NCBI GenBank assembly: GCA_031262805.1
Contig: JAISGX010000099.1
Location: 1 to 38,914 of the forward strand
DNA from: Verrucomicrobiota bacterium
GTDB taxonomy: Bacteria > Verrucomicrobiota > Kiritimatiellia > CAIQIC01 > Lenti-01
Reading direction: 5' to 3'
Length of the DNA stretch: 38,914 nucleotides
Shown: one piece after another, positions 7,893-38,914 of the stretch
Numbering within the stretch: the stretch's first letter is position 1
Layout of the letters: every line of letters starts with the position of its first letter
Notes under the pieces: generated by a model
What the model saw: the letters and a program-made list of their open reading frames with translations, nothing else
What the model was told of the DNA's origin: nothing
Database searches by the model: none
Position numbers and translations under genes: made by a program

Positions 7893-10769
7893 ATGCAACC
7901 GAAATCTGTACAACCGAACCAACTCAAGCACCATTGGGAAATTTATTTTTTCATCATTCCCACGCTGATCCTCATTGCCCTCTTCCAGTACTACCCCGCC
8001 AGCTCCGGAATCTTCCACTCCCTGTTCCGCTGGAACGGATCGGACATTTCCGAATTCGTCGGCTTCGCCAACTATGTGGACCTGCTCAAAACGATGGAAT
8101 TCTGGAATTCCTTCAAGCTGGCCTTCATTCTCGGCTTCTGGAACGTCATCAAGATGATTCCCGCTCTGCTGGTCGCCGTTTGCATTCACCGGTGCGTCTC
8201 CACCAAAATGCAGTTTTTCTACCGCACACTCTTCGTCGTGCCCATGGTGATCCCCGGCCTGATCACCGTGCTGATCTGGCGGTCCTTCTTCTTCGAGGCC
8301 ACCTCGGGATATTTGAACCAGTTTCTGGATTGGTCCGGCCTGATGACGGCCCTCCAGAATGCCGGCATGTTCGTGACCGCCAAGCTGGCGGATCCGGCCG
8401 ACGGCGGAGTCGCCATCGGTAGCCTTGCACGCTCCTTTTTCGAGACGTTCGACTGGATCACCGCCTTCAAGCCTGGAACCACCCCCGCCTGGCTCGGAGA
8501 TCCAAAGCTGATCATCATCGCCTGCGTGGTCTGGGGCTTCCCCTGGGTGGGTTCCTTCGCCGTGCTGACCCATCTGGCCAAACTGCAGAACATTTCCAAG
8601 GATGTCTATGAAGCCGCCGACATCGACGGAGCCACCTGGTGGTCCCGCTTCACCAAGATCGAACTGCCCCTGCTGATGGGCTCCATCTATCTTCTGCTGG
8701 TGTTTGCCATCATCGACACCATCAAAGACGCCGGCATGATCATGGCCCTCGCCGGCATCACCGGCGGTCCCGGCGGACGGGCCACCGTCCCCGCCCTCTT
8801 CATGTTGCGCAAGGCCTTCATGGACCAGCAGATGGGCTATGCCTGCGCCGTCGGCATCGTGTTGACCGTGGTGGTGCTGCTACTCCAGAAGATCAGCAAC
8901 ATGTTGCTGAACGCCGAACCCACCGACCGGCCCGGCAAGAGCGCTTGGTTCGGCATCCTTTCCTTCTATGCGTTCATCGAAGGCTATCTGTTCTTCCGGG
9001 GCTATCTCCTGCCGAAAACGGCCACCGTGGCCGTGCTGCTGCTCTTCGTGCTGCGCCTAGCCGTCCAGTTGGGCCTGTTGATCAGCGTGCCCGTGTTGCT
9101 GCGCAAATTCGGCAAGCCCTTCCGTCTCTTGGGCTACACCCTCGCCGTCCTGTGCATCCTCGCCCCCGTCGCGGGCCTGCCGAATCCCGCCGGCATCCAT
9201 TTCCTGTTCTTCGGCTTCGCCCTGCTACTGATGGCCACCGCCGAAATCTTCAAAATGGCCATCGGCGCCATCGGGCTCATCCTCGCCAGCTATGGCATCC
9301 GGACCGGTTCCATCGACATGATGGTGGCCGGCGGAGTCTTCATGGTGCTGGCCACCCCGTGGGACCGCCTGTTCACCCGGATGGACAAAGCCTATCTCGC
9401 CCGCTGTCTGGCCAATCCACAGGCCCCTCCCGGGCAGCATATCGGGTATTATCTCGCCATCGCCCTCTTCCTGTTCGTCTGCTTCCTTCTCTCCCGCACC
9501 AGCGGCGCCCGCTCAGGCATGGGGCCCTTGGCCCTTTCGGCCATCCAGGCCGCCGTCCTCTACGGGCTACATGTCCTCTCCACCCTGCCCTCCACCCGCC
9601 GCTGGATCACGCCGCTGGCCGTGGCCGCCGGCGCCTTCGCCGTGTGGGGCGTGGTCGGCGGGCAGCTTCCACGCGTGCTGCTCGGGCTCTTCGCCCTCGG
9701 TATGTTGTCCACCGCGCCCTTCCGGAGCCTGCTCCTGGCGGGCGGCGCCGCCCTCCTGCTCTCCAACCAGCTCCACGGAACCGGTGGATTCTGGCCCGGC
9801 CTGCTGCTCGTCTTGATCTTTTTCCCATGGAAGGCCCTGTACCTCAAAGCCATCCGCTTCAATCCAGCGGCATACCGCTCCAAGGGGGATTTGTATTCGG
9901 CGGAATCCTTCGCCCTCCGGCAACACGCCGGCTACCGCGCCGCCTCCCTGACGGGCGATTGGGGCCTCCGTTTCAGCAAGCACGCCTTCATCTGGTTCAT
10001 TCTGGCCTTCGCCTTCCTGCCGCTCTACCTCATGCTGATCGTGTCGCTCAAGGACAACAACCAGTTCTACCGCAACCCGACCACCCTCGCCGAGCCCTAC
10101 CACTGGGAAAACTGGAAAACCGCCTGGGAAATGGTCTCCCCCACCGTCGCCAACTCCATTTTCCTCTCCACCACCGCCACGTGCCTGATTGTGCTCTTCG
10201 GATTGGCCGGCGCCTATTTCTTTGCACGCCTGCGCGTGCCCGTTTCCTCCTTCCTGTGGAACGCCCTGCTCTTGCTGATGATGATGCCGATGATCGCCAA
10301 CCTCGTGCCCCTGTTCATCCTCCTGCGCGACATGAACCTGCTCAACACCCTGACCGCCCTGATCCTGGTGGGCGCCTCCGGCGGACAGGCCTTTGCCATC
10401 TTTGTCTTCCGAAACTTCATCTCGGACATTCCACAGGATTTGTTTGAAGCGGCGGAAATCGACGGCGCCAATCATTTCCAACAGCTCAAGCTGGTGGTCA
10501 TTCCGCTCTCCGGTCCCATCATGGGCACTGTGGCCGTCATGCAATTCCTCGGGCAGTGGAACGAATTTGTGCTGCCGCTGATTGTGATGCGCGAACAGGC
10601 CCGCTTGCCCGTAACCGTCCAGCTGATCCGTATGGCTGGTGAATACATCAAGCTGTGGGGTCCCCTCATGGCCGGATATGCCATCGCCTCCATCCCGGTC
10701 ATCATCCTGTTCACCTTCTCCATGAAGCTCTTCGTCCGCGGCCTCACCGAAGGCGCGGTGAAGGGTTGA
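7893..10769 (+). CDS. Fused MalF-MalG-like sugar ABC transporter permease with extra membrane-spanning central region
   Basis: Two EAA loops in one uninterrupted 958-aa ORF: VYEAADIDGATWWSRFTKIELPLL and LFEAAEIDGANHFQQLKLVVIPLSGPI, separated by a long hydrophobic region. Confidence 0.88.
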   Translation: MQPKSVQPNQLKHHWEIYFFIIPTLILIALFQYYPASSGIFHSLFRWNGSDISEFVGFANYVDLLKTMEFWNSFKLAFILGFWNVIKMIPALLVAVCIHRCVSTKMQFFYRTLFVVPMVIPGLITVLIWRSFFFEATSGYLNQFLDWSGLMTALQNAGMFVTAKLADPADGGVAIGSLARSFFETFDWITAFKPGTTPAWLGDPKLIIIACVVWGFPWVGSFAVLTHLAKLQNISKDVYEAADIDGATWWSRFTKIELPLLMGSIYLLLVFAIIDTIKDAGMIMALAGITGGPGGRATVPALFMLRKAFMDQQMGYACAVGIVLTVVVLLLQKISNMLLNAEPTDRPGKSAWFGILSFYAFIEGYLFFRGYLLPKTATVAVLLLFVLRLAVQLGLLISVPVLLRKFGKPFRLLGYTLAVLCILAPVAGLPNPAGIHFLFFGFALLLMATAEIFKMAIGAIGLILASYGIRTGSIDMMVAGGVFMVLATPWDRLFTRMDKAYLARCLANPQAPPGQHIGYYLAIALFLFVCFLLSRTSGARSGMGPLALSAIQAAVLYGLHVLSTLPSTRRWITPLAVAAGAFAVWGVVGGQLPRVLLGLFALGMLSTAPFRSLLLAGGAALLLSNQLHGTGGFWPGLLLVLIFFPWKALYLKAIRFNPAAYRSKGDLYSAESFALRQHAGYRAASLTGDWGLRFSKHAFIWFILAFAFLPLYLMLIVSLKDNNQFYRNPTTLAEPYHWENWKTAWEMVSPTVANSIFLSTTATCLIVLFGLAGAYFFARLRVPVSSFLWNALLLLMMMPMIANLVPLFILLRDMNLLNTLTALILVGASGGQAFAIFVFRNFISDIPQDLFEAAEIDGANHFQQLKLVVIPLSGPIMGTVAVMQFLGQWNEFVLPLIVMREQARLPVTVQLIRMAGEYIKLWGPLMAGYAIASIPVIILFTFSMKLFVRGLTEGAVKG

Positions 10770-13774: not shown

Positions 13775-13792
13775 GGGTCAAGATAACATAAG
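13775..13792 (+). repeat. Isolated 18-bp sequence identical to the IS1595-like terminus at 38797
   Basis: gggtcaagataacataag is identical at 13775-13792 and 38797-38814. No transposase follows here. Confidence 0.6.
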
Positions 13793-14046
13793 TGGGTTGT
13801 TTCGAAATAATTTCGGCAAAGTTTTATATGCGTTGCAATGGCGATGATTGAAGCGCCATTCGCATGGGCGAAGCGATTCTTATCTTGCCAAGGGAAATGC
13901 GTTGTTCGACTTCCGTGCGGCATTTCAAAGCAGCAAAGGCTCTTTAGCGTGGCTTCTGCTTAAAACCACATAATTTCGCTTAAAAACTGGATTCGTCCCG
14001 CGAGAAAAAGGTATATTTGCTTCTCTTACAGAAGGATGAACCGAAG

Positions 14047-15864
14047 ATGGACAACCAAATTCACAACCAAATCGTCAGCTTTATATGGGGCATTGCAGAT
14101 GACTGCCTAAGAGATGTTTATGTGCGCGGCAAATACCGCGATGTTATACTGCCCATGACGGTAATCCGCCGCCTTGATGCTGTTTTGGAAGGCACAAAGG
14201 AAGAGGTGTTAAAGACAAAAGCCATGCTGGACAAGGCTGGCATCGTCAGCCAGGCAGATAGCCTTTGCAAAGCGGCAAAGCAGTCCTTTTGCAACTGGTC
14301 GCCCTTCCGCTTAAAAGATTTAACAAGCCGCGCTAAGCTGCAACAGCTTCAGGCGGACTTCACCGTATACTTAGACGGCTTTTCGCCCAATGCGCAGGAG
14401 ATACTGACAAAGTTCAAATTCCGTGAGCAAATCCAGACCATGGTGGATGCGGATATTTTGGGCTTGGTGATAGAAAAGTTTGTGTCGCCCACCATCAATC
14501 TAAGCCCCTTCCCCGTGATAGACGGAAGCGGCAAGGTGAAGCTCCCCGCCCTTGACAACCACGCCATGGGAACGGTTTTTGAGGAGCTTATCCGCAAGTT
14601 TAATGAAGAAAACAACGAGGAGGCTGGCGAACACTTTACCCCGCGTGATGTAGTGGAGCTGATGGCAGACCTTGTGTTTGTGCCGGTCAAGGGCAAAATC
14701 TTAGACTCCACCTATTCCATCTATGACGGCGCAAGCGGCACGGGCGGTATGCTCACCGTGTCCGAACATCGCCTGCAAAGCCTTGCTCAAGAGGCGGGCA
14801 AAAAGGTCTCCGTCCACCTCTTTGGGCAGGAGATTAACCCCGAAACCTACGCCATCACCCGTGCCGATATGCTGATAAAGGGTGACGGCGCGGAAGCCGA
14901 GCATATTGCCTACGGCTCAACCCTTGGTAACGATGCCTTCCCGACCAAACAGTTTGACTTTATGCTGAGTAACCCGCCCTACGGCAAGTCGTGGAAAAAC
15001 GATGCCGAAAAGATGGGCGGCAAAAAGGGTATTTTAGACACCCGCTTTGTGACACAGTTTAGCGGCGACCCAGAGTTTGCCATGATACCAAGGAGTTCTG
15101 ACGGGCAGCTTTTGTTCCTCCTAAACAATGTGGCAAAGATGAAAGAGACCACCGAGCTTGGCAGCCGCATTGCCGAGGTGCACAACGGCTCCTCGCTGTT
15201 CACTGGGGATGCGGGGCAAGGCGAAAGCAATGCACGGCGATATCTTATCGAGCGTGACCTTGTGGAGGCGATAATCGCCTTGCCCAACAATATGTTTTAC
15301 AACACTGGGATAGGCACGTTTATATGGGTGCTTTCCAACCGCAAGGAGACGCGGCGCAAGGGCAAAATTCAACTAATTGATGCCACATCCCTCAAAAGCC
15401 CCCTCCGCAAAAACTTGGGGCAGAAGAACTGCGAGTTTACATCGGAGATAAGACAGCAGATACTTGACCTGTATCAGGACTTTGCAGAAAACGAATACAG
15501 CAAAATTTTTGCCAACACCGACTTTGGTTCTTACAAGGTCACCGTCATGCGCCCCGCAAAGGACGACAAGGGCAACCTCCTATGTGACAAAAAGGGCAAG
15601 CCCGTGGCAGATAAAGAGCTGACGGACACCGAAAATATCCCCCTCAACTACGCCGGCGGCATTGATGCCTTTATGGCGGCGGAGGTTCTCCCGTATGCCG
15701 AGGGTGCATGGGTAGACCATACCAAAACCAAAATCGGGTATGAAATCAGCTTCACCAAGTATTTTTACAAGCCCGTACAGCTTAGGGAAATGGCAGACAT
15801 CATTGCCGACATCCGCGCCTTAGAAAAGGAGACAGACGGCTTACTGGATGAGGTGCTTGGATGA
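14047..15864 (+). CDS. hsdM: Type I restriction-modification system, methyltransferase subunit
   Basis: N6-adenine MTase motifs (DGASGTGGML; FDFMLSNPPYGKSW; GEHFTPRDVVELMADL). Start set at MDNQIHNQIVSFIW. Confidence 0.96.
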   Translation: MDNQIHNQIVSFIWGIADDCLRDVYVRGKYRDVILPMTVIRRLDAVLEGTKEEVLKTKAMLDKAGIVSQADSLCKAAKQSFCNWSPFRLKDLTSRAKLQQLQADFTVYLDGFSPNAQEILTKFKFREQIQTMVDADILGLVIEKFVSPTINLSPFPVIDGSGKVKLPALDNHAMGTVFEELIRKFNEENNEEAGEHFTPRDVVELMADLVFVPVKGKILDSTYSIYDGASGTGGMLTVSEHRLQSLAQEAGKKVSVHLFGQEINPETYAITRADMLIKGDGAEAEHIAYGSTLGNDAFPTKQFDFMLSNPPYGKSWKNDAEKMGGKKGILDTRFVTQFSGDPEFAMIPRSSDGQLLFLLNNVAKMKETTELGSRIAEVHNGSSLFTGDAGQGESNARRYLIERDLVEAIIALPNNMFYNTGIGTFIWVLSNRKETRRKGKIQLIDATSLKSPLRKNLGQKNCEFTSEIRQQILDLYQDFAENEYSKIFANTDFGSYKVTVMRPAKDDKGNLLCDKKGKPVADKELTDTENIPLNYAGGIDAFMAAEVLPYAEGAWVDHTKTKIGYEISFTKYFYKPVQLREMADIIADIRALEKETDGLLDEVLG

Positions 15865-17738
15865 TTTGGTATGGAAAATTACCCGACAGATGGTCGGAAA
15901 AGAAAATTTCAGAAGTTTTTAGCGAACGTAAAATTAAGGTTTCGGACAAAGATTTTGCGGCATTATCTGTTAGCAAAGGCGGCATAGTGCCTCAAATTGC
16001 AACGGTTGCAAAATCAAATGACAGCGACAATCGCAAGAAGGTTTGCAAGGGTGACTTTGTCATTAACAGTCGCTCGGATAGACGCGGCTCAAGCGGCGTT
16101 TCCAATTACGATGGGTCGGTTTCCCTAATAAATATCGTTTTAACGCCAAGACACTACGAGAACGCAAGGTATTGGCACTATTTACTCAAAAGTCATTCTT
16201 TCATAGAAGAATATTATCGCAATGGACGTGGAATCGTTGCAGACCTTTGGACAACGCGATATTCAGAAATGAAAACTATTTATCTTCCCGTGCCGCCACG
16301 AGAGGAGCAAGACAAAATCGTGCGGTTTTTGGACTGGAAAGTTTCACAAATCAACAAGCTCATCAACGCCAAAAAGAAAGAGATTGCCCTCCTAAAAGAA
16401 CTACATCGTGCAGCAATCTCCGAAACTGTGAAAAATTGCAATGGTACTGTTGTTAGAATTGGTCGTGTTCTTAAAAAACTGAACCGTAGTTACAGCATTA
16501 ACGATGATGTCCTTATCTGCTCTAATAGTGGCGCTGTGTTCTTTAGGGGAAATAGAAAACTCGGTGTTATATCTGACAAAGAGGATATTTTCCAAGGTGT
16601 TGAAAATGGTGACCTTTTAATACACGGAATGGACACATGGCATGGTGCAATTGGCATCTCTGATTTTAGCGGAAAGTGTACAACAGTGGTTCATGTCTGT
16701 GATACCGAACAAGACAAGCGTTATATAAAATACTATTTGCAAATGCTTGCCTTTGCAAAACTTTATAAAGCTATATCCAATGGCGTTCGTCAAAACACAA
16801 GCGACTTTAGAAGTTGGCAAAAAGCAGGTTCAATAGAAATTGTTTTACCCTCAATTGACGACCAGAAAAACATAGCAGATTTCCTTGATAAAAAATGTGC
16901 AGAGTTTGAGAATGTTAAGATAAAGTTAGAAAAAGATATCTCGTTGTTATCCGAATACCGCACCCGCCTTATCTCTGATGTGGTGACGGGCAAGATGGAT
17001 GTGCGCGGCATTGCCGTGCCTGATTTTGATGCCGTGGGAGAAATGGCCGAAACCGAGGTAACGGATGAGGCGGACGAAGTGCTTGCGGTTGAAGAAAGCA
17101 GTTTGGATGTTGAAGAAGTTAAAGTTGTTGCCGCAAAAAAGCCAAAACAACAAAAGCATTCGTTCGGTTTTGAGGATGCGGTTGTTCTTGCCGTACTTGT
17201 AAAAGAGTTCGGCAGCAATGACCACCCATTTACCGCTTTTGACGGCCAAAAGTTTCCGTACCTTTTTCATCGCCATGTTGAGGGCGTTGCGAAAGGGTAT
17301 GAGAAGTTCGCGGCGGGACCATACAATAGGGCTCTGAAACATAAGACTGCCCAGCCGATAGCGATTAAGAAAAACTATATTCGTCGACATGTGGGAAAAT
17401 ATAGAGGATTTGTTGTGGACGCTAATATTTTGGAAGCTGAAACGTATTTTAATAAGTGGTTCGGCGCAGACACATTAAGGTGGATGGATCAATTTCGTTG
17501 CATTCCGAATCGGAAAGCTGAACTGGAGCTTTTAACAACCGTTGACATGGCTATGGTAGAACTGCGCAAAGCAAATAAGCCCATAACGGTTGCCAACGTC
17601 AAGAATGTAATTCAAAGCAACAAAGCGTGGAAAGCAAAACTCACTCGCCCTATATTCTCAGATGAAAATATCGACCGCGCAATCAAATGGAGTGAGCGCC
17701 TTTTCGGTACGGCTTCCAACCAGCCAAAGGAGGGCTAA
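15861..17738 (+). CDS. hsdS: Type I restriction-modification system, specificity subunit with ~240-aa C-terminal extension
   Basis: Two TRDs with conserved helices (EEQDKIVRFLDWKVSQINKLINAKKKEIALLKELH; IADFLDKKCAEFENVKIKLEKDISLLSEYRTRLISDVVTGKMDVRGI). ATGA overlap with hsdM. Confidence 0.93.
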   Translation: MIWYGKLPDRWSEKKISEVFSERKIKVSDKDFAALSVSKGGIVPQIATVAKSNDSDNRKKVCKGDFVINSRSDRRGSSGVSNYDGSVSLINIVLTPRHYENARYWHYLLKSHSFIEEYYRNGRGIVADLWTTRYSEMKTIYLPVPPREEQDKIVRFLDWKVSQINKLINAKKKEIALLKELHRAAISETVKNCNGTVVRIGRVLKKLNRSYSINDDVLICSNSGAVFFRGNRKLGVISDKEDIFQGVENGDLLIHGMDTWHGAIGISDFSGKCTTVVHVCDTEQDKRYIKYYLQMLAFAKLYKAISNGVRQNTSDFRSWQKAGSIEIVLPSIDDQKNIADFLDKKCAEFENVKIKLEKDISLLSEYRTRLISDVVTGKMDVRGIAVPDFDAVGEMAETEVTDEADEVLAVEESSLDVEEVKVVAAKKPKQQKHSFGFEDAVVLAVLVKEFGSNDHPFTAFDGQKFPYLFHRHVEGVAKGYEKFAAGPYNRALKHKTAQPIAIKKNYIRRHVGKYRGFVVDANILEAETYFNKWFGADTLRWMDQFRCIPNRKAELELLTTVDMAMVELRKANKPITVANVKNVIQSNKAWKAKLTRPIFSDENIDRAIKWSERLFGTASNQPKEG

Positions 17739-17741
17739 CCT

Positions 17742-20696
17742 ATGCCGGCAAACACAAAGGAGTGGGGGCTGGAGAGCCTTATCGCGGGCTGGCTTGTTTC
17801 CGAAAACGGCTATGAGCAAGGGCAAAGCAGTGACTACAACAAAGAGTTTGCCTTAGATGAAACCCGCCTCTTTAGGTTTTTGCAAACCACACAGCCCAAG
17901 GCATTTGCCATGCTGGGCGTGACGGAAGCCGAAATCAAAAAGGAAAAGTTCCTTAGCTTTTTGCGCGGCGAGATTACCAAGCGCGGCATTATTGATGTCC
18001 TCCGCAAGGGCTTAAAGTGCTACCCCGTCAATGAAGTGATACTGTTTTATCAAACGCCCTCCGAAAAGAACGTGGCGGCAAAGGCGAATTTTGATAAGAA
18101 CATTTTCAGTGTGACACGCCAGCTGATGTATAGCAATGACAACACCAAGCTCGCACTTGACCTGTGCCTGTTTATCAACGGCTTGCCCATCATCACCGTA
18201 GAGCTGAAAAACCAGCTGACCAAGCAGGATGTGGACGATGCGGTGTACCAGTATCAAAACGACCGCGACCCGAGGGAGCTTTTATTCAACTTCAAGCGGT
18301 GTATGGTTCACTTTGCCGTGGATGACAGCAGTGTGATGTTCTGCACCAAGCTGGACGGCAAAAAGTCATGGTTTTTGCCCTTCAACAAGGGCTATGATGA
18401 CGGCGCGGGCAACCCGCCCAACCCGAACGGCTTAATGACGGATTACCTATGGCGGGAGACCTTCACCAAAACGGAGCTTGCCAACATCATCGAAAACTAC
18501 GCCCAAGTGGTGGAGGAGAAGGACGGGGACACCAAAAAGACAACCTACAAACAAATATTCCCCCGCTACCATCAGCTTGCAGTTGTCAAAGCCTTGCTTG
18601 CGGATGTAAAGGCAAACGGCATCGGCAAACGCTATCTCATACAGCACAGCGCGGGCAGCGGCAAGAGCAATTCCATAGCGTGGCTTGCGCACCAGCTTGT
18701 GGGCTTGGAGCGGGGTGGCAAAAACGTGGTGGATTCCGTCATTGTCGTCACCGACCGCGTCAACCTTGATAAGCAAATCAACAGCACCATCAAGCAGTTT
18801 ATGCAGGTCAAAAACACGGTGACCCATGCCGAAAAATCGGAGGATTTGCGCACCGCCATTGCCACGGGCAAAAAAATCATCATCACCACCGTGCATAAAT
18901 TCCCATTCATTTTGGATGCCATCGGCACGGAGCATAAGGGGCATCAATTTGCCATCATCATAGACGAGGCACACAGCAGTCAAAGCGGCAGTATGAGTGC
19001 CAAGATGAATATGGCACTCTCCGGCGAATACGACCCCGAGGGGCACGATGATGAGGACTTTATCAATATCCTCATTGAAAACCTCATAAAAACCCGCAAA
19101 ATGCTGCCTAACGCCAGCTATTTCGCCTTCACTGCCACACCCAAGCAAAGGACACTTCGGATGTTCGGGACGGCGGTAGTGCAACCAGACGGCGACAACA
19201 AATACTATCCCTTCCACGAGTACACGATGAAGCAAGCCATACAGGAGGGCTTTATACTGGACGTACTCAAAAACTATATGCCCGTACAGAGCTATTGGAA
19301 GTTGGTCAAAACCGTAACGGACGACCCCAAGTATGACAAGAAGAAGGCGCAGAAAAAACTGAAAAAGTTTGTGGAGCGTGACAATTATTCCATCTCGCAA
19401 AAGGCAGAAGTGATGGTGGAAAATTTCTACTCACAGGTGATTGCGCGGGGCAAAATCGGCGGCAAGGCAAAGGCGATGGTGGTGACGGGCGGCATTGAGC
19501 TTGCCATCGAATATTACTACGACATCTGCCGCTGCTTAGAGGCACGCAAAAGCCCCTACAAGGCAATCATCGCATTCTCGGGCGAGAAGGAATACCAAAA
19601 GAAAATGCTGACCGAAGCGGACATCAACGGCTTCCCCAGCAGTGCCATAGAAAAGGAATTCAAAAAGGACGAGTACCGCTTTTTGGTGGTGGCGGACAAG
19701 TTTCAGACAGGCTATGACGAGCCGCTGCTACACACCATGTATGTGGACAAAGCCCTCTATGACATCAAGGCTGTGCAAACGCTCTCCCGCCTCAACCGTG
19801 CGTATCCTGGCAAGCACGACACCTTTGTGTTGGACTTTTTCAACAAGCCAGAAGAGATTCAGGAGGCGTTTCAGACCTACTACCGCACCACTGCGCTTTC
19901 GGGTGACATCGACCCCAACAAGCTATACGAGCTGCTGTCTAAGATGGAACAGCTTGAAGTCTACGACATGAACCAAGTGAATGACTTTATCGCGCTGTAT
20001 CTTTCGGGCGCGGATAGGGACAAACTTGACCCCGTTTTGGATGTGTGTGTTGCCGACTATAAAAAGCTGGACGAGGACAAACAGGTGGAGTTTAAGGGCT
20101 CGGCAAAAGCCTTTGTGCGCACCTACAGTTTTTTAAGCGCGGTTTTGCCTTACGGCAATGCCGACTGGGAAAAGACATATATCTTTTTGAGCTTCTTAAT
20201 CCGCAAACTGCCGTCCCCCGTGGAGGAGGATTTGGCGCAGGGTATCCTTGATGCCATCGACCTGCAAAGCTACCGTTCGGAGGCTGGCACGGCGATTTCC
20301 ATTCAGCTTGAAGACAGCAATGCCGAGATAGACCCCGCAACGGTCGGCGGCGGCAAAAAGCCCGCAGAACCCGAAATGGACGTTTTATCAAGCATAATCA
20401 CATCGTTTAACGACCTATTTGGTAATATCGAGTGGAAAGACTCCGACAACGTGCGCCGTCAAATCACCGAAATCCCCGCTATGGTTTCCAAAGACGAGAC
20501 CTACCAAAACGCCATGAAAAACTCTGACAAGCAGAACGCCCGCATGGAAAGCGACCGTGTGCTTGCCGCCGTGATGGCGGGCTTAATGTCCGACAACATC
20601 GACCTCTATAAACTGTTTGTCGACAACCCCTCTTTCAAAAAATGGCTGTCCGACATGGTGTTTAACCAAACATATCAGCCCCCCCCACCGCCATGA
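17742..20696 (+). CDS. hsdR: Type I restriction-modification system, endonuclease/translocase subunit
   Basis: Nuclease motif region ([19 protein letters not shown]), Walker A-like [20 protein letters not shown] ([12 protein letters not shown]), SF2 motifs ([34 protein letters not shown]). Confidence 0.96.
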
Positions 20697-20791
20697 ACTA
20701 CTACGGTTATAGATTCTACAACCCCGAACTCGGAAGATGGATCAACCGGGATCCGATTGAGGAAGGTGTAAAGTTGAAGCCGCCCAAGTAA
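20693..20791 (+). pseudogene. RHS repeat-associated core fragment (copy 1)
   Basis: Reads [32 protein letters not shown]. The RHS-core [18 protein letters not shown] motif is fused against the hsdR 3' end. Confidence 0.8.
20703..20788 (+). repeat. 86-bp direct repeat, copy 1 (RHS core)
   Basis: Identical by eye to 22283-22368. Confidence 0.95.
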
Positions 20792-20833
20792 GTTCCAGTT
20801 TCATATTCTTTGCCATTTATTCGTCCTTTTCTT

Positions 20834-21991
20834 TTATTTTTCACTTGGGGTCAAAAGATTGGTATATCCTGCGTAAGTATAAACCTGTCTCCATTTCTTT
20901 TCACTGATATTTTTGACTATTCCCAAGGCTATCAGGCGATTAACCGCACTGATTGCCGTCGGCTTGGTAAAGCCGGTGCGTTTGGTTATTTCGGCAATCG
21001 TCAGCATCGGCTTTTGCTTGAACTCGTCCAATACCACGCCAACGGATTCACGGGCGCGGCCAATGCCTTTTACTCGCTCATCGTCCTCGGCAAACATTTT
21101 TTGGATTTTAAGCAGAGTGTTCTTTGCGTTCTGTGCCGTTTCCACCACGCCCTCTAAAAAGAAGCCGAGCCAGTCTTCCCAATCGCCAGTCTTGCGGATT
21201 TCGTCCAGCTTTTCATAATACAAATCACGATGTTTTTTAAAAAATAACGACAGATACAAAAATGGCGATTTTAAGAACCCACGCTCGCATAGATACAGCG
21301 TGATAAGCAATCGCCCCGTGCGGCCGTTGCCGTCCAAAAACGGGTGGATTGTTTCAAACTGTTGATGAACAAGGGCGGTTTTGACCAGCAAGGGAATTTT
21401 ATCCTCTTCATTATGCATAAAATTTTCCAAATCGCCCATTAAATCCAAAACTTTGTCAGGCGGAGCGGGAACAAACCGAGCCGTTGATGGACGCGTGCCG
21501 CCAATCCAATTTTGACTGGTGCGGAACTCGCCTGGTGTTTTGTTCTTACCTCGGGCGTTGGTCAGTAAAACCTTGTGGATTTCACGGATAAGGCGAAGCG
21601 AGAGCGGAAAGCCACCCTCAATGCGTTTTAAGCCGTGGTTGAGTGCCGCAACATAACTTGAAACCTCGGCAACATCTTCAATCGGCGTGCCAATTGCATC
21701 GCCGGATTCATAGCGGAGCAAGTCGTCAAGTGTTGATTGCGTGCCTTCGATTTGCGAGGACAGCACGGCCTCTTTGCGGACATACATATAGTTGATAATG
21801 CTCGGGTCGGGGGCATTTTGAACAACGCCGTTTAACTCGCCGATAGCCAAATTCGCTTTTTCCAGCCAATCGGAAATCGCCATCATATCAATGGCGGGAG
21901 TGGGTGGAAGGGCATTCGGGACATAGGCTTCGTATCGCTCGCCACCAACCAGCGATGATTTTATCAAAGTTCCTTGCAGTTTTCGCTTCAT
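20834..21991 (-). CDS. Fic family protein (class II, N-terminal inhibitory helix; C-terminal winged-helix-like region)
   Basis: Canonical Fic motif HPFLDGNGRTGR, upstream inhibitory motif SSQIEGTQ, C-terminal wHTH-like PMLTIAEITKRTGFTKPTAISAVNRLIALGIV. Start set at MKRKLQGTLIKSS. Confidence 0.93.
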   Translation of the reverse strand: MKRKLQGTLIKSSLVGGERYEAYVPNALPPTPAIDMMAISDWLEKANLAIGELNGVVQNAPDPSIINYMYVRKEAVLSSQIEGTQSTLDDLLRYESGDAIGTPIEDVAEVSSYVAALNHGLKRIEGGFPLSLRLIREIHKVLLTNARGKNKTPGEFRTSQNWIGGTRPSTARFVPAPPDKVLDLMGDLENFMHNEEDKIPLLVKTALVHQQFETIHPFLDGNGRTGRLLITLYLCERGFLKSPFLYLSLFFKKHRDLYYEKLDEIRKTGDWEDWLGFFLEGVVETAQNAKNTLLKIQKMFAEDDERVKGIGRARESVGVVLDEFKQKPMLTIAEITKRTGFTKPTAISAVNRLIALGIVKNISEKKWRQVYTYAGYTNLLTPSEK

Positions 21992-22082
21992 TTTGCACCT
22001 AAACGATTGTTTTACATTACAGGCATCTAACAACAAAAACTTTGACAAGCCCAGCAAAAAGTCAATGATTTATAACTAACTT

Positions 22083-22284
22083 TTACTTTTTATAAAAGAA
22101 AGTAAAGTTATTGAGGTTTTTAGGCTGGATTACTTCCTTTTTACCGGCATAACTAAACGCCGCGCCAAATCTTTTTGCATCAATTTTATGCACGGTATCG
22201 TGCGCTTTTTGACTGCTAAAAACTTGCAGATTGCTTGGCGAATTGTTCAGTTTGTTTCGGTCTTTATGATGAACAACTTCGCAC
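22083..22284 (-). pseudogene. HNH endonuclease C-terminal fragment
   Basis: Minus-strand translation CEVVHHKDRNKLNNSPSNLQVFSSQKAHDTVHKIDAKRFGAAFSYAGKKEVIQPKNLNNFTFFYKK*. HNH-like HHKDRNKLNNSPSNL. The 5' part is missing at the 86-bp repeat boundary. Confidence 0.7.
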
Positions 22285-22368
22285 GGTTATAGATTCTACA
22301 ACCCCGAACTCGGAAGATGGATCAACCGGGATCCGATTGAGGAAGGTGTAAAGTTGAAGCCGCCCAAG
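22283..22368 (+). repeat. 86-bp direct repeat, copy 2 (RHS core)
   Basis: Identical by eye to 20703-20788. Confidence 0.95.
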
Positions 22369-22509
22369 AACTGGAACCGTCGTGGAATCGAGCACAACTT
22401 TCCCGGAATCGAACCGAATCTTTACCGGTTTGTTCGAAACAATGCGTTGCTCTTTCTTGATTCACAGGGATGGAAGCCCTTTTTGGATTGCGCGAAGGGG
22501 GCCAAATGA
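22285..22509 (+). pseudogene. RHS repeat-associated core domain C-terminus, 5' truncated
   Basis: [74 protein letters not shown]; ends at TGA 22507-22509. Confidence 0.8.
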
Positions 22510-22932: not shown

Positions 22933-23006
22933 TGGGCCCTGCAGGACTTGAACCTGCGACCAAAAGATTATGAGTCTTCCGCTCTGACCAACTGAGCTAA
23001 GGGCCC
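22933..23006 (-). tRNA. tRNA with CAU anticodon (Ile2 or elongator Met)
   Basis: GGGCCCT-TA-GCTC-AGTTGGTCA-GAGC-G-GAAGA-CTCATAA-TCTTT-TGGTC-GCAGG-TTCAAGT-CCTGC-AGGGCCC-A folds as a complete cloverleaf. Overall it resembles tRNA-Ile(CAU). Confidence 0.93.
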
Positions 23007-38706: not shown

Positions 38707-38796
38707 AACCTAATTTCTCCTGTTTTAAACCATGTACTTTTGAAATCAAACGCGAACATTACCGGATTTGCCGCAGCCGGTGCAAGTTTATTTTTA

Positions 38797-38914
38797 GGGT
38801 CAAGATAACATAAGCGCATTGAAAGTATGCCATAATGCGCAGAATGAAGCCCCAAAACAGGTATTTCAAACATTCCAAAATTTCTGAAGAGAAATTCAGA
38901 GATATTTTACGCCT
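38797..38914 (+). mobile_element. IS1595-like insertion sequence, left end (truncated by window edge)
   Basis: Terminus gggtcaagataacataag, then at 38844 an ORF start MKPQNRYFKHSKISEEKFRDILR that resembles the N-terminus of IS1595-family transposases. Confidence 0.65.
38844..38914 (+). CDS. IS1595-like transposase N-terminus (partial)
   Basis: MKPQNRYFKHSKISEEKFRDILR, open to window end. Confidence 0.6.
   Translation, partial: MKPQNRYFKHSKISEEKFRDILR

Follow-up and report, generated by a model that had tools for sequence, protein, structure and literature searches.

A 1494-bp insert, carrying on its minus strand an intact Fic gene and an HNH fragment truncated at the 5' end, lies between two identical 86-bp copies of RHS-derived sequence. 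We read this arrangement as an illegitimate insertion accompanied by an 86-bp duplication, brought about by break repair or by template switching during replication, and give this reading a probability of about one half. The locus looks like an ordinary scar of patchwork insertion and not like a special system for RHS tip exchange or excision.

The window, that is, the entire stretch of DNA analysed (38,914 nucleotides), is one whole contig (C118) of a draft Verrucomicrobiota genome of 1.98 Mb, assembled in 154 contigs and 86% complete. The source organism is an uncultured bacterium, probably of the insect gut. G+C content drops from about 60% outside the island to 40-53% across it, and the locus is a mosaic accessory island of defence type, a patchwork with several unrelated joints (Table 1).

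Table 1. Features of the island and of the repeat-bracketed insert (positions are those of the window).
Position	Strand	Feature	Evidence or remark
13775..13865		Relic of a dispersed ~90-bp repeat, beginning GGGTCAAGATAACATAAG	Just upstream of hsdM
14017..15864	+	hsdM, type I DNA methyltransferase	Pfam N6_Mtase 4.6e-54, HsdM_N 3.2e-22; PADLOC MTase_I 4.8e-239
15861..17738	+	hsdS, specificity subunit with long C-terminal extension	Pfam Methylase_S 6.7e-13
17742..20696	+	hsdR	Pfam HSDR_N, ResIII, SWI2_SNF2
20684..20702	+	RHS sequence left of the repeat, at copy 1 only	blastn of the window against C47, C50, C81, C83 and C4 starts at 20683/20684
20703..20788	+	86-bp repeat, copy 1, followed at once by TAA	~53 bp RHS core + ~33 bp gene-specific
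20789..20831		43-bp spacer between copy 1 and the Fic module	Unmatched by the Fic module of C48, whose homology begins at 20832
20834..22057	-	Intact SoFic-type Fic gene	Pfam Fic_N 1.9e-25, Fic 2.6e-22
22085..22282	-	HNH_3 (homing-endonuclease-like) gene, C-terminal fragment	Pfam HNH_3 2.4e-7; PADLOC HEase 8.5e-5
22283..22368	+	86-bp repeat, copy 2	RHS homology starts abruptly at 22283
22369..22509	+	Natural 3' end of the RHS ORF, no toxin domain recognised	NCBIfam Rhs_assc_core (TIGR03696) 7.5e-10 over 22282-22506
22933..23006	-	tRNA-Met(CAT), edge of the variable region	ARAGORN

The repeat itself was confirmed. An earlier note on this DNA had described two perfect 86-bp copies with a period of 1580 bp, and a repeat search of the window returned exactly these: the copies agree at 86 of 86 positions with a spacing of 1580, a match far beyond chance, and no other perfect copy occurs in the genome. 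An RHS-associated core domain is present in the ORF that continues from copy 2 (TIGR03696, 39.2 bits against a cut-off of 32.5), the match covering only the C-terminal part of the model (34-75 of 76), and the end of this ORF gave no Pfam match. The other RHS genes of the genome share a common core with small differences, after which each diverges, past the motif NRDP; five such cores match the repeat at 88-94%, limited to its first 51-61 bp. The repeat runs on for about 33 bp beyond this divergence point, and those bases are absent from every other RHS gene identified in the genome. The inclusion of these gene-specific bases argues that both copies derive from one particular RHS gene, and not from two independent arrivals of the common core. 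A search of genomes for this RHS tail recovered it from no genome but the present one; one order-level relative matches at 46%.

The polarity of the flanking sequence is equally telling. Beyond the repeat, RHS sequence is found on the outer sides only, for 19 bp to the left of copy 1 and to the natural end of the gene on the right of copy 2, as expected had 1494 bp entered one RHS remnant and duplicated 86 bp of target. RHS sequence upstream of about 20684 is missing at the locus, where hsdR runs directly into RHS sequence; the RHS gene had already been reduced to a 3' remnant, its 5' part gone, before the insertion. The joint between hsdR and RHS sits in a run of C, and the final four or so codons of hsdR (PPPP) are supplied by RHS sequence. 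Close homologues of HsdR stop near this joint, the distance ranging from a few to about 25 residues, and hsdR can therefore be regarded as essentially complete, its last codons being taken from RHS DNA. Separately, HsdS is unusually long (625 aa), and within it residues 432-609 are similar to the C-terminal portion of the NCBIfam DarG antitoxin model at 2.7e-5, below the cut-off of that model.

RHS genes whose cores are nearly identical and whose tips differ, at least five in addition to the one at this locus, were observed on contigs C47, C50, C81, C83 and C4, all near contig ends, and the genome probably contains more RHS genes than were counted. A further observation concerns the bases next to the repeat: GTTCCAGTT, which directly follows copy 1, and AACTGGAAC, which directly follows copy 2, are reverse complements of each other (9 bp; 20789-20800 and 22369-22378), a match that is perhaps due to chance or perhaps a trace of template switching. 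The predicted single-strand fold at copy 1 is weaker than that of shuffled sequences (z 0.80), giving no sign of a special structure there.

That a different module, Fic plus the C-terminus of an HNH protein, lies on the opposite strand between the repeats had been proposed from the sequence and was borne out by Pfam. The Fic protein resembles the SoFic-type AMPylating enzymes in having Fic_N and Fic domains, the complete catalytic motif HPFLDGNGRTGR, an N-terminal inhibitory-type motif (SSQIEG) and a C-terminal winged-helix match, and PADLOC assigns it to SoFic at 1.6e-118; it differs from them in scoring 164 bits against the 550-bit cut-off of the NCBIfam SoFic equivalog. The gene is intact, and its product probably acts as an ordinary intracellular AMPylating enzyme. 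Its relatives occur in a scatter of metagenome-assembled genomes (MAGs) from spirochaetes, Endomicrobium and alphaproteobacteria. A second Fic copy in the same genome (C48:35541-36819, 85% nucleotide identity) stands alone between different flanks, with neither HNH nor RHS sequence beside it, and in a phylogenetic tree the two copies fall together with modest support (83/71), beside a gene from a Planctomycetota MAG.

The HNH fragment retains its HNH motif but lacks the start codon and the N-terminal part, the break falling exactly at the repeat; its last ~25 bp overlap the Fic module. No second copy was found in the genome and no source among the phage and plasmid records searched, while the relatives that were found, longer than the fragment and only partial matches to it, lie in viral contigs. 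At the right joint a candidate 4-bp microhomology, ACGG, belongs to RHS sequence and also fits the HNH reading frame, and a viral relative (L158) has the same proline at this point. Neither this HNH nor RHS sequence accompanies Fic at any of the 38 loci of Fic relatives, and since the other Fic copy of the genome also stands alone, Fic and HNH are not an inherited pair. An inherited unit of Fic, HNH and hsd genes was likewise rejected: beyond the missing HNH neighbour, hsd genes occur near Fic at 1/38 loci only (L067, from Helicobacter), with distant homologues of hsdM and hsdR, and a close relative of the HsdR encoded here was found at none of the 38. The insert is a chance combination of pieces, and its HNH piece, like the RHS pieces around it, is debris.

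The scheme that we favour would begin with the type I restriction operon hsdMSR lying directly against the 3' remnant of the RHS gene. A 1494-bp piece, holding a stand-alone SoFic-type Fic gene and the promoter of that gene along with a broken HNH gene, would then have entered the remnant and duplicated 86 bp of it. Synthesis would have departed from the remnant at ...CCGCCCAAG, taken in the Fic-HNH fragment by copying or capture, and returned to the remnant at ACGG, 86 bp upstream, possibly through the 4-bp microhomology with HNH. We infer the repair mechanism itself, and two features weigh against it: no diagnostic trace was left beyond that possible microhomology, and 86 bp is long for a duplication made by repair. 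A Ku gene was not found in the genome (86% complete), which argues against the classical end-joining version, and no donor of the Fic-HNH fragment was found.

The main rival, which we regard as unlikely, is the Campbell-type integration put forward in the earlier note, whereby a circle carrying the 86-bp RHS segment, Fic and the HNH fragment would have recombined homologously into the resident RHS remnant and so placed a copy at either side; a crossover in the reverse direction would release the circle again. The geometry of copy, module and copy, with RHS sequence continuing only outward, fits integration as it fits insertion, and at rhs loci a role for homologous recombination with circles has been suggested (PMC2935791). 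Such a circle, however, would have had to carry exactly the 86 bases of this one gene, including the gene-specific 33 bp, with foreign DNA on both sides and zero divergence. No source of it was found, a 31-base piece of the repeat matched none of the viral contigs, and the insert, in which only Fic and the HNH fragment were found, contains no recombinase, transposase, integrase, replication or transfer gene. The broader proposal that RHS cores in this lineage serve as landing sites for small, integrase-less circles with defence-type cargo (Fic, HNH, restriction genes) is, in our estimation, very improbable. If a circle were shown, the locus would matter more, as RHS genes would then be landing sites for unrelated cargo.

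Rather less credible than the circle is an origin in two unrelated events, with copy 1 representing an RHS fragment joined to hsdR when the hsd genes were acquired and copy 2 an RHS end later truncated by the insertion of Fic-HNH. The island is indeed a mosaic with several unrelated joints, including the element relic at 13775, and the run of C at the hsdR-RHS joint could have provided microhomology. Two separate events would nonetheless leave the complementary outward extensions to coincidence, whereas one insertion with duplication explains both.

The relic at 13775 belongs to a dispersed repeat of its own. Full-length matches of 90-92% to this ~90-bp sequence lie on C21, C48, C11 and C100, with partial ones elsewhere, and the copies on C21, C48 and C11 are within ~60 bp of a contig end. 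Given its position at several contig ends, the repeat is possibly the end of a multicopy mobile element that is absent from the assembly. Sites of this repeat (GGGTCAAGATAACATAAG...) were observed in the window at 13775-13865 and 38779-38814 and on C21, C48, C11, C100, C4 and C54. On C48, a degraded stretch resembling the inner part of the repeat adjoins the second Fic copy.

It could also be supposed that the assembly is at fault, the contig having been mis-joined at the 86-bp sequence or one copy added by the assembler. The genome is a draft of 154 contigs, and each of the five other RHS cores is no more than ~400 bp from the end of a contig; RHS sequence is thus a real source of disturbance in this assembly. 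Against this, contigs C83 and C81 share their first 119 nt exactly, the mark of a de Bruijn assembly with k=119. We infer from this overlap that the present genome was so assembled; MEGAHIT-type names (k119_) are carried by several MAG contigs that hold Fic relatives. As k exceeds the length of the repeat, 119-base words would cross each copy into both flanks and each copy should have been resolved between its own neighbours, which makes an artefact unlikely. Moreover, the ends of the repeat coincide with real joints, namely the HNH break and the TAA codon, and not with overlaps of word length.

The age of the insertion is loosely bounded. The perfect identity of the copies had been taken to suggest a recent event, which is possible and weakly supported, 0 differences in 86 positions giving a 95% upper bound of ~3.4% divergence. 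Excision by recombination between the repeats is plausible; it would restore no intact RHS gene, only a short RHS remnant after hsdR. Comparison with ~3.6-kb loci of family relatives, which lie around a conserved pair of response regulator and gpsA genes, revealed no empty site; no tRNA was found at these loci, and the TPR gene is present in none of them. At the locus itself, a small ORF lies between the end of the RHS ORF (22509) and tRNA-Met. A tRNA-targeted island was considered and rejected: the window holds no second exact 12-mer of the tRNA-Met region, the 3' end of which would be the att site. No integrase was found among the island ORFs examined.

Two further features of the contig were observed. 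An ORF of 958 aa at 7893-10769 appears, as judged from its sequence, to fuse two sugar-transporter permease domains, one MalF-like and one MalG-like. At the contig end (36368-38900) stand three diverged tandem copies of a unit of ~850 bp, each with a terminator-like hairpin (AAAGCGGCCGAACGGCCGCTTTT).

Collectively, these results show that a gene framed by a long direct repeat can look like a mobile cassette. They also advise caution, as a repeat of RHS core sequence need not mean tip exchange.

The locus was also compared with known systems. The earlier note's objection that a usual target-site duplication is shorter than 86 bp is fair, with the qualification that IS1549 and IS1634 make duplications of variable length, from 8 to 514 bp (PMC2266710). 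The present locus is like these elements in having a direct repeat of a length within that range around inserted DNA. Transposition of this kind is nevertheless highly doubtful: the insert has no transposase, its inner ends have no terminal inverted repeats, their end-to-end alignment being no better than that of shuffled sequences (21% of shuffles align as well; fraction 0.206), and its boundary cuts through the HNH gene, unlike a transposon end.

The second comparison is with RHS C-terminal tip displacement, in which a complete rhs gene acquires a new tip while its former core and tip are displaced downstream (PMC2935791, Jackson et al. 2009). The earlier note had invoked such tip exchange, a suggestion that does not hold here. 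No complete rhs gene lies upstream of the acquired DNA, where hsdR ends at 20696 and RHS homology begins only at ~20684. Copy 1 gained no new in-frame tip, being followed directly by TAA and then by Fic on the opposite strand. The shared sequence is not confined to the core, its identity extending ~33 bp past NRDP. The identity between attached and detached cores that tip displacement expects is seen in full (86/86), and the locus is like that system in having acquired DNA flanked on either side by identical RHS-derived sequence and in that a circular intermediate is conceivable; it is unlike it in that the inserted genes lie on the opposite strand and are unrelated to RHS tips.
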